Assembly (NCBI RefSeq): GCF_027257955.1
Contig: NZ_JANZNQ010000003.1
Coordinates: 124,001-188,000 of the forward strand
From: Zhongshania aquatica
GTDB lineage: Bacteria > Pseudomonadota > Gammaproteobacteria > Pseudomonadales > Spongiibacteraceae
Length of the DNA: 64,000 nucleotides
Direction: 5' to 3'
The position numbers and the translations under genes are program-made. Each line of letters opens with the position of its first letter. Position 1 is the first letter of the stretch. Shown piece by piece: positions 7,421 through 27,948 of this stretch. The notes below the pieces were generated by a model that saw only the letters and a program-made list of their open reading frames with translations, did no database searches and was not told the origin of the DNA.

Positions 7421-7449
7421 TTGCCATTATCACGGATATTGGTTAGAGT
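7421..7449 (+). promoter_or_regulatory. Candidate sigma-70 promoter for the tRNA-Ser cluster
   Basis: TTGCCA (7421-7426) and TAGAGT (7444-7449) are separated by exactly 17 bases and are followed by a G/C-rich discriminator (gccgccc). It precedes the first partial tRNA-Ser copy, so a transcript from here would contain the broken copies as well as the intact tRNA. Confidence 0.5.
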
Positions 7450-7492: not shown

Positions 7493-7616
7493 GATGAGGT
7501 GTCCGAGTGGCTGATTCGGAGGCTTTGCCCGGGAAAGCGCCCAACGGGCGATAACGAGCACGCAGGTGTGCGGACCTGACGCTCGTAAAACCATCTAAAA
7601 CTGTGCAGATTTAGAA
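7493..7616 (+). repeat. Broken tRNA-Ser 5' copy no. 1 with hairpin-rich spacer
   Basis: Bases 7496-7514 repeat the 5' part of the intact tRNA-Ser (acceptor end and D arm, tgaggtgtccgagtggctga). The match ends in the D arm and is replaced by a G/C-rich stretch with self-complementary parts (gcccg...cgggc, then acgagc...gctcgt). It cannot fold as a tRNA because the anticodon and T arms are absent. The unit ends with agaatttg, the sequence that also precedes the next two copies, so the units look like degenerate tandem repeats. Confidence 0.75.
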
Positions 7617-7782
7617 TTTGGTGAGGTGTCCGACAAGATTGTGCAACAATCTTGGACGTTGGCGCTTTGCGACGACGGGGCGCAGCCCCGAGCTCCGATA
7701 GGAGCGAGTCAATGGCTGAAGGAACGAGCGCTTAACGCTCGCTATTTGGGGAAACCCACTTCTAGCCTAAGACGAAGAATTT
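7617..7782 (+). repeat. Broken tRNA-Ser 5' copy no. 2 interrupted by hairpin element A
   Basis: ggtgaggtgtccga (7620-7633) repeats the tRNA-Ser 5' end. It is then interrupted by a perfect 9-bp hairpin (7634-7642 with 7646-7654), a ttggacg / gcgacga segment, a ggggc/gcccc hairpin and a gctcc/ggagc hairpin (7692-7705). After this the D-arm sequence resumes (ggctgaagga, from about 7714) and leads into another hairpin (cgagcg/cgctcg, 7725-7741). It is a tRNA-Ser copy split inside the D loop, not a functional tRNA. Confidence 0.75.
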
Positions 7783-7872
7783 GGTGAGGTGTCCGAGTGG
7801 CTGAAGGAGCACGCCTGGAAAGTGTGTAATGGGTCAAACTATTCGAGGGTTCGAATCCCTCCCTCACCGCCA
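7783..7872 (+). tRNA. tRNA-Ser (GGA anticodon)
   Basis: An intact 90-base class II tRNA with encoded CCA. The acceptor stem ggtgagg pairs with cctcacc, the D arm is tccgagtggctgaagga, the anticodon stem-loop carries tGGAaa, a variable arm follows, and the T arm is gagggTTCGAATccctc. The 5' half is almost identical to E. coli tRNA-Ser(GGA). It decodes UCC/UCU. It sits between broken copies of itself and is followed by a strong terminator. Confidence 0.97.
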
Positions 7873-7882
7873 TTAAGTAAAT

Positions 7883-7908
7883 AACCCGGCCTTTGTGCCG
7901 GGTTTTTT
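7883..7908 (+). terminator. Rho-independent terminator of tRNA-Ser
   Basis: aacccggc / gccgggtt forms an 8-bp stem with a 6-base loop (ctttgt) and is followed by a run of six T, eleven bases after the CCA end of the tRNA. Confidence 0.9.
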
Positions 7909-7920
7909 ATTTAAGCTGTT

Positions 7921-8054
7921 AGGGTCGGTGAGAACCCTCGCTGGGTTCGATAAATTGCGATCAGCAATTTAAACAAGCCGCGCTTCTCAGCGGCGCAGCC
8001 CGCAGGGGCAAATCAGCCCCTAGGATGATTTGATTTATCCCTCCCTCACCGCCA
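7921..8054 (+). repeat. Broken tRNA-Ser 3' copy with hairpin element B in the T loop
   Basis: gggttcga (7943-7950) and atccctccctcaccgcca (8037-8054) reproduce the T arm and 3' acceptor end of the tRNA-Ser, but about 86 bases are inserted in the T loop. The insert begins and ends with the inverted repeat gataaat / atttatc (7949-7955, 8033-8039) and contains three further hairpins: aaattgc/gcaattt (7952-7970), gccgc/gcggc (7977-7994) and aggggc/gcccct (8004-8021). The copied 3' end lies 182 bp after that of the intact tRNA. Confidence 0.78.
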
Positions 8055-8064
8055 TTAAATAAAT

Positions 8065-8090
8065 AACCCGGCCTTTGTGCCGGGTTTTTT
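8065..8090 (+). terminator. Second copy of the tRNA-Ser terminator
   Basis: The hairpin and T tract are the same as at 7883-7908, and the bases joining them to the tRNA 3' end differ at a single position (cattaaataa against cattaagtaa). tRNA end plus terminator were therefore duplicated as one piece. Confidence 0.85.
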
Positions 8091-8179
8091 ATTTGTACTG
8101 TTAAGGTCAGCCGAAAACCCTCACAGGGTTCTACAAATGAAGGCTATCGGTTTAATTCAGCCGCGCCAATTATTCCAAG

Positions 8180-27681: not shown

Positions 27682-27787
27682 TGGTGCCCGGGGCCGGAGT
27701 AAATAAAAACAGCCATAGGGCTGTTTTCACCCCTTCGGGGCTTCGTCGCTTCGCTCCTCGTCCAAATTGCATGCGCAATTTGTGAAC
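27682..27787 (-). repeat. Partial tRNA-Leu 3' copy split in the T loop by hairpin element C
   Basis: tggtgcccggggccgga (27682-27698) is identical to the 3' end of the intact tRNA-Leu (27862-27878) and lies 180 bp from it. The match stops in the T loop; 84 bases follow that fold into aaaacagcc/ggctgtttt (27706-27727), cccc/gggg (27730-27740) and caaattgc/gcaatttg (27763-27782), and then gaacc resumes. On the tRNA strand it reads ggttcacaaattgc...ttggacgagg...gcgacgaagcccc. This is the same layout as element B near tRNA-Ser. Confidence 0.75.
27704..27727 (-). terminator. Terminator-like hairpin for tRNA-Leu inside element C
   Basis: On the minus strand AACAGCC and GGCTGTT pair around a four-base loop and are followed by TTTTTATTT, a good intrinsic terminator, 135 bases past the tRNA 3' end. 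Confidence 0.7.
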
Positions 27788-27861
27788 CTTTCCGATTCAA
27801 GCCCCCGGAGGATTAAGATTTCTATTGGAGTTGGGTAGCGGTACTACTTTCTGTGCGTAGG

Positions 27862-27948
27862 TGGTGCCCGGGGCCGGACTTGAACCGGCACGACATTGCT
27901 GTCGGGAGATTTTAAGTCTCCTGTGTCTACCGATTTCACCACCCGGGC
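27862..27948 (-). tRNA. leuZ: tRNA-Leu (TAA anticodon)
   Basis: An intact 87-base class II tRNA with encoded CCA. The acceptor stem gcccggg pairs with cccgggc, the anticodon loop has ctTAAaa, the variable arm is long, and the T arm has ggTTCAAgt. It decodes UUA/UUG. In E. coli the equivalent gene follows glyW and cysT directly; here it is about 3.2 kb further on and has its own promoter. Confidence 0.96.

Follow-up and report, generated by a model that had tools for sequence, protein, structure and literature searches.

How does a single tRNA-Ser(GGA) gene come to stand among broken copies of its own two ends, with hairpin-rich sequence in between? The locus that raises this question lies on the forward strand of a 64,000-nucleotide stretch of DNA from Zhongshania aquatica, the whole of which was analysed and is called the window here. 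A first-pass annotation, made from the sequence alone, had described one intact gene in the middle of an array of partial copies, and this layout held: ARAGORN and Rfam (RF00005, 53.3 bits) placed the sole intact tRNA-Ser(GGA) of the mosaic at 7783-7872, between two copies of the 5' end and one copy of the 3' end. The 5' end was indeed present three times (at 7493, 7620 and 7783), although the first copy, which reads GATGAGG with one change, begins at 7493 and not at about 7496 as had been stated. The 3' end and its terminator occur twice, 182 bp apart (7855-7926 and 8037-8108), as a 72-nt repeat that is 93% identical, a length and identity that rule out chance repeats. Both extra 5' copies end in the D arm, as described, with breaks in the D-loop: the copy at 7493 is identical to the tRNA for 22 nt (to ..GGCTGA) and the copy at 7620 for 14 nt (to ..CCGA). 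The extra 3' copy (8037-8054) consists of the final 18 nt of the tRNA (ATCCCTCCCTCACCGCCA) and, because the match covers just these nucleotides, has its break in the T-loop. In the 5' copies an insert comes after the break and in the 3' copy before it, with lengths of 40-87 nt, and the earlier description of these inserts as hairpin-rich was borne out by comparison with dinucleotide shuffles, relative to which stronger folds were predicted for the 3' unit (7926-8058; z = -5.1, 0 of 200 shuffles as good) and for the two 5' units, type A (z = -3.1, 2 of 200) and type B (z = -3.1, 0 of 200).

Read 5' to 3', the array is preceded by a promoter-like site (TTGCCA-17-TAGAGT, 7421-7449) upstream of all units, whose putative activity is suggested by a pattern scan of 16 same-genus Ser-GGA loci: in 15 of them a counterpart precedes the tRNA and its units; in the sixteenth (L035) the promoter pattern found no fit. 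The type A unit (7493-7619) is made up of the 22-nt tRNA 5' piece (7493-7514), a 40-nt D-loop insert (7515-7554) and, to its 3' side, an anticodon-arm remnant and spacer reaching to 7619. Type B (7620-7782), which is present too in the same-genus genomes G001, G008 and G011, has a 14-nt 5' piece (7620-7633), a 78-nt insert after CCGA (7634-7711) and then a D-loop and anticodon remnant to 7782. Beyond the intact gene lie a first intrinsic terminator, read from the sequence as a hairpin and T run (7885-7908), the left arm of the 3' unit (7927-7940), a direct copy of the 5' half of the T-arm (GGGTTCGA, 7943-7950), a multi-hairpin T-loop insert with a core resembling the RNA family RtT (7951-8036), the second copy of the tRNA's last 18 nt and a second intrinsic terminator, read in the same way (8067-8090). 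Within the left arm, GAACCCTCG (7932-7940) is the reverse complement of the T-arm sequence CGAGGGTTC.

The locus stretch was searched in 57 genomes, that of the window (G000) included, and a match was obtained in all 57, which the conservation of the tRNA would lead one to expect. Among the 17 same-genus relatives, at least 13 carried full or partial extra units at Ser-GGA, two carried none and two (G003 and G013) stand outside this count, which was read by eye. Type A ranged from zero to three copies per same-genus Ser-GGA locus, some of them partial (none in, for example, G016 and G002; one in G000, G017 and G010; a partial copy in G008; two in G015; two and a partial copy in G007; three in G009). 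Type B ranged from zero to four plus a partial copy (one each in G000, G001 and G008; four in tandem and a partial one in G011), and the 3' unit from zero to two, some partial (present in G000, G008, G005, G004 and G014; partly in G012 and G006, contig edge). No 3' unit was seen at Ser-GGA in G001, G002, G007, G009, G010, G011, G015, G016 or G017. Repeated recombination at the tRNA, one of the two mechanisms proposed earlier, thus gains support from a copy number that varies between species from none to four units, and from the near-identity of unit copies inside one genome. An assembly artefact, which would leave relatives with the intact tRNA alone, was ruled out because the units occur on independent assemblies, including single-contig ones (G004, G010 and G014). 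On the minus strand of L010, at about 1840-2300 and downstream of the tRNA-Ser of G011, other palindromic repeats (CTCGTCATACCGGCTTTAAGCCGG...) were seen twice.

RtT is a little-understood RNA beside the E. coli tyrosine tRNA gene (rtT, tyrT operon). The 3' unit of the window aligned with the RtT model (RF00391) over its full length (7908-8054, model positions 1-130). The score of 23.5 bits (E = 0.045, 801 bases searched) falls short of the Rfam gathering cut-off of 45 bits, and a search of the window at gathering cut-offs returned tRNAs alone and no RtT. This match is weak, since in the 801-base search unrelated families reached lower E-values (RF04351, 0.00048; sX4, 0.0036; PsrR1, 0.015; isrO, 0.018; SorX, 0.025; MicX, 0.037), matches that we read as tRNA and terminator matches. 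In placement the unit agrees with RtT: it comes immediately after a tRNA gene and closes with a copy of that gene's 3' end, and the RtT motifs (GAUGAGAACC..GGUUCGA, GCCCGnAGGG and AUCC plus the 3' end) have their counterparts in it (GGUGAGAACC and GCCCGCAGGG); at the DNA level the two share GATGAGAACC..GGTTCGA, the GCCCGnAGGG hairpin and an end of ATCC plus the tRNA 3' end. Loci that match RtT likewise have a 17-19 nt repeat of the tRNA 3' end and tandem units. Unlike RtT, the window has a longer insert and adds 5'-side D-loop units that are absent from the Rfam model. Among 20 related loci, RtT was matched at E <= 1 in two, L011 (36.9 and 35.2 bits) and L012 (27.8 bits), all below 45. Judged from its alignment, its place and relatives at 35-37 bits, the unit looks like a divergent relative of RtT; because the cut-off is not reached we treat it as an RtT-like variant and not as a strict member, and file the mosaic as such a variant with an added 5' (D-loop) counterpart.

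Units of this kind were widespread. A class-wide search at E 0.01 recovered RtT matches in 61 of 274 genomes (53 of 222 genera), 18 genomes being above the cut-off; among 14 control genomes E. coli alone matched, and with the stricter filters of this search (E 0.01) G000 itself had no RtT match. Model R2, built from 17 units of which several came from genomes later searched, matched in 18 of 21 genomes at E 0.05, G000 included. In that genome its matches lay behind Ser-GGA, Arg-CCG (two), Met-CAT (two) and Leu-TAA; all six at E < 0.01 were behind tRNA genes, and a seventh, weak one was on contig C65 (E = 0.036). R2 also matched type B weakly (E = 0.0105 in G011 and 0.015 in G001). The Leu-TAA match is a second RtT-like unit of the window (27697-27803, or 151697-151803 of contig C41, on which the window spans 124001-188000; minus strand; R2, 69.4 bits; fold z = -3.5) behind tRNA-Leu(TAA) at 27862-27948; it was observed to contain a Leu-type T-arm half (GGTTCA) and a repeated Leu 3' end. 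Tandem RtT-like units, two each, were noted in the same genome at L004 (1579-1909, C18) and L006 (1506-1798, C19), behind tRNA-Arg(CCG) and tRNA-Met(CAT), and a tandem row of five, spaced about 192 bp apart, behind tRNA-Met in G008 (C1:1274693-1275564, partly L042). Behind tRNA-Ser(GCT) at L041 (G008 C9, minus strand) the insert alone appeared, by eye, to be repeated in tandem at about 120 bp, with no tRNA ends between copies.

The association with tRNA genes was assessed on 110 matches (70 to RtT, one per cluster of the class-wide search, and 40 to R2), of which 90 followed a same-strand tRNA and 88 began within 87 nt of the tRNA 3' end. Among the 20 matches with no upstream tRNA call, several were at contig edges, one (L221) was behind a tRNA-Leu by eye, and L144, L146, L165, L226 and L227 resemble relics that lie apart from any intact tRNA. 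In this set the link between hairpin spacers and tRNAs that had been claimed for the locus extends beyond it, most copies being associated with a tRNA. The units resemble REP/BIME elements in being short hairpin repeats, and excerpts of PMC2965389 report rtT-like sequences inside BIMEs; those elements, however, are dispersed between protein genes, whereas the copies here are mostly tied to tRNAs. Nor do the R2 matches of G000 and the DNA matches to an insert of G318 (below) fit palindromes dispersed beside protein genes, the relics away from tRNAs being exceptions.

Breaks were scanned in 196 distinct tRNA contexts in the collected loci, with counts that are biased as to presence because the collecting models contain tRNA ends; these models do not prescribe where exactly the break falls in the cognate tRNA. 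Downstream, 87 copies of the 3' end were found in 70 of the 196 contexts, and 76 of them are 17-19 nt long (56 of 19 nt, 17 of 18 nt and 3 of 17 nt) and therefore start in the T-loop. Upstream, 41 copies of the 5' end were found in 30 contexts, stopping at nt 22 in 14 cases, at nt 21 in 2, at nt 14 in 4, at nt 13 in 3 and at nt 57, in the T-loop, in 3, with the other 15 of the 41 stopping elsewhere. Nine contexts contained both kinds of copy, including Ser-GGA of the window, G008 and G177, and D-loop copies ending at nt 22 were present outside the genus in G098, G177, G318, G366, G378 and G401. In these loci the breaks demonstrably cluster at a few loop positions. We take A14, A21 and A58 to be the positions concerned in standard tRNA numbering.

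Insert lengths were not uniform: 60-107 nt (n = 52) with 37 of 52 at 71-87 nt, by a search pattern that found inserts in 36 of 52 loci and allowed little outside 60-107 nt. In G318 a copy of tRNA-Ser(GCT) contains one D-loop and one T-loop insert, and these two are alike (Smith-Waterman score 70, against a mean of 16.2 and a maximum of 23 in 100 shuffles). The T-loop insert of this copy is, furthermore, identical at 74 of 79 positions to the insert in a tRNA-Arg-like copy with different tRNA flanks (Arg by eye, with no ARAGORN call). This single case is the best evidence that an insert has moved, although mobility is not thereby proven; the next pair of inserts with different flanks stood at 0.71 versus 0.90. 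Insertion of palindromic elements into duplicated tRNA arms, the other mechanism put forward in the first-pass annotation, is supported by the position of the inserts at loop breaks and by this insert shared between two tRNAs. DNA matches to the G318 insert numbered 19 in 6 genomes; 14 of these loci contain an ARAGORN tRNA somewhere along their length, and four of the remaining five end in tRNA-like sequence by eye, the fifth, L255, being ambiguous. In G177, the T-loop alone holds an insert in three tandem, near-full-length tRNA-Gln copies, and the Ser-GGA gene of that genome stands between a D-loop unit on its 5' side and an RtT-type unit on its 3' side.

Not all inserts of the window could be joined to this group. 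The 40-nt type A insert showed no similarity to five T-loop inserts in pairwise alignment (z from -1.7 to 0.3) and therefore joins the family by position only. Its model, R1, matched 19 of 194 genomes at E 0.01; where a tRNA was in the locus the matches were mostly upstream of Ser-GGA, other families included, while L185 and L186 had no tRNA nearby and L178, L179 and L193, at contig ends, had none called. The type B insert resembled the T-loop insert of G318 (0 of 100 shuffles as good), resembled the window's own T-loop insert weakly (3 of 100) and had no similarity to the Met insert of G008 (50 of 100). Its model, R3, gave weak matches beside other tRNAs and elsewhere. Two of these (L201 and L213, in G014) were on the opposite strand to tRNA-Leu(GAG), near its 3' end, which may be explained by palindromic inserts matching on either strand.

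RtT-type units typically follow an order of terminator, inverted piece of the own tRNA's 3' half, GGTTCGA (the direct T-arm half), hairpin-rich insert, and (A)ATCC followed by the tRNA 3' end. The inverted arm tracks the tRNA beside it, reading GAACCCTC by Ser, GAACCGCC by Met and GAACCCCCC by the Ser-GCT of G014, whose T-stem is GGGGG. Scored against the cognate tRNA in 90 units, the inverted match averaged 23.8, compared with 16.5 (sd 0.37) after permutation (0 of 5000 as high), and a direct-orientation control, also at 0 of 5000, gave a far smaller margin (15.7 versus 14.3, sd 0.19). The cognate topped all tRNAs of other isoacceptors in 38 of the 90 units and at least 90% of them in 58. Taken as a set, and at the level of sequence matching, the left arms are thus shown to be inverted copies of the own tRNA; some units, such as the tRNA-Gln copies of G177 (L102, by eye), have no inverted arm.

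Equilibrium folding predicted that this arm invades its own tRNA in read-through transcripts. For the window tRNA and its 3' unit in one transcript, the predicted cloverleaf value was 0.04; shuffling the left arm alone raised it to a mean of 0.41 (60 of 60 shuffles at or above the natural value) and shuffling arm and insert together to 0.33 (57 of 60), while shuffling the insert alone gave 0.06 (29 of 60). In a swap test on 60 units drawn at random from 74 usable among 90 rows, with four swaps each, predicted native acceptor and T-stem pairing stood at 0.92 for the tRNA alone; it dropped to 0.10 with the natural unit and to 0.42 when the left arm came from a unit of another tRNA, the natural unit being below the swapped one in 52 of 60 (Wilcoxon, 1.2e-8). 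The upstream units alone are not predicted to invade the tRNA (0.56, versus 0.62 for the tRNA alone), and with 5' and 3' units together the window cloverleaf was predicted at 0.13. We also considered that the inserts insulate the tRNA fold from the extra ends and found no support for this, as the 5' units were little distinguished from shuffles (0.56 versus 0.42, sd 0.15; 13 of 60 as good) and the 3' unit acts oppositely.

We think it somewhat probable that the mosaic consists of a tRNA-Ser(GGA) gene with tandem tRNA-half units on either side, and that a mobile palindromic module has filled the loops of these units. Each unit would represent one tRNA end, with a small hairpin-rich insert lodged in the D-loop of the 5' units and in the T-loop of the 3' unit. 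The palindromic module, mobile or copyable, would enter tRNA loops, mostly after GA; recombination between the repeated ends would multiply or remove units; selection would demand just that one intact gene be left; and, in transcripts extending beyond terminator 1, the tRNA could be unfolded by the inverted arm of the 3' unit. That the arrangement recurs at many tRNA genes and that unit number varies between species is shown by the genome comparisons above, while the mobility of the module and its function are unproven. Both mechanisms proposed at the outset accordingly find support, and the first-pass annotation had overlooked the concentration of most breaks at a few loop positions, the RtT-like nature of the 3' unit, its inverted own-tRNA piece and the recurrence at other tRNAs and in other families.

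The cognate match of the arms and their predicted effect could alternatively mean that RtT-type units form a functional cis-antisense RNA system, in which the anti-tRNA arm pairs with the 3' half of its own tRNA in transcription past terminator 1 and destroys or delays that tRNA. Such a tuning of tRNA supply may be connected with the stringent response, as has been suggested for E. coli rtT. Excerpts of PMC4986893, which treat RtT as a known family near tRNA genes, agree with this in reporting that Northern blots from Actinobacillus show RtT and in attributing to it, with reference to Bosl and Kersten 1991, a part in the stringent response; they place their two RtT RNAs, however, upstream of tRNA genes. 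Loss of RtT in an E. coli mutant is mentioned in excerpts of PMC12584984. Any inverted copy yields the same prediction, the tRNA unfolding because the copy is present whether or not the cell uses it, and the prediction is one of equilibrium folding, whereas folding and processing of a nascent tRNA can be complete before the unit has been transcribed. Moreover, an intrinsic terminator separates tRNA and unit, several species have no 3' unit at Ser-GGA, and the predicted unfolding is milder when both sets of units are present and is not caused by the upstream units alone. We regard this regulatory function as unlikely.

Less likely still is that the array is pure mutational debris: with no mobile module involved, tRNA hairpins would have undergone template switching or tandem inversion duplication, the palindromes having been perfected by template-switch correction and the copies laid down in direct-inverted-direct order. 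RtT-type units do have that order of tRNA pieces, their inserts are strings of hairpins and insert length varies widely, but the clustered breaks, an insert layout common to distant families and the insert shared, at 74 of 79 positions, by two different tRNA copies all speak against it. We consider it very improbable that the repeats are scars of integrative elements, that is, attachment sites left by a tyrosine recombinase. A block of 18-19 nt from the T-loop to CCA is typical of tRNA attachment cores, and the identity block of the 3' repeats has just this extent, as a direct repeat of the tRNA 3' end. Units of about 180 bp are nevertheless too short for a recombinase gene and leave no room for an element between the repeats, a structured insert of the same layout occurs class-wide and in tandem arrays, equivalent, mirrored 5' copies are broken in the D-loop, and an inverted T-arm is not expected.

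Starting from the favoured reading of tRNA-half units filled by a palindromic module, we tentatively suggest a wider one, which we hold to be possible and nothing firmer: RtT and the D-loop units may belong to a single class of hairpin elements, devoid of genes, whose specific targets are tRNA loops (nt 14 or 22 around the D-loop, or the T-loop close to A58) and which sit beside an intact tRNA; the RtT-type members would carry a cis-antisense copy of their own tRNA, able to unfold it when transcription reads through. The literature covered, which included few subscription journals and is thus weak evidence of absence, yielded no report of D- or T-loop insert elements and no earlier report of a 5' (D-loop) counterpart of RtT; excerpts of PMC4986893, PMC2965389 and PMC12584984 make no mention of D-loop units, loop break points or a cognate inverted arm. 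The arrangement ties RtT, which is poorly understood, to a recurrent architecture with preferred breaks in tRNA loops, accounts for a class of tRNA fragments that cause confusion when genomes are annotated, and makes the testable prediction that read-through units are anti-tRNAs matched to their own tRNA. If the wider reading is true, it would mean that a tRNA-specific selfish or regulatory element has spread through the Gammaproteobacteria.
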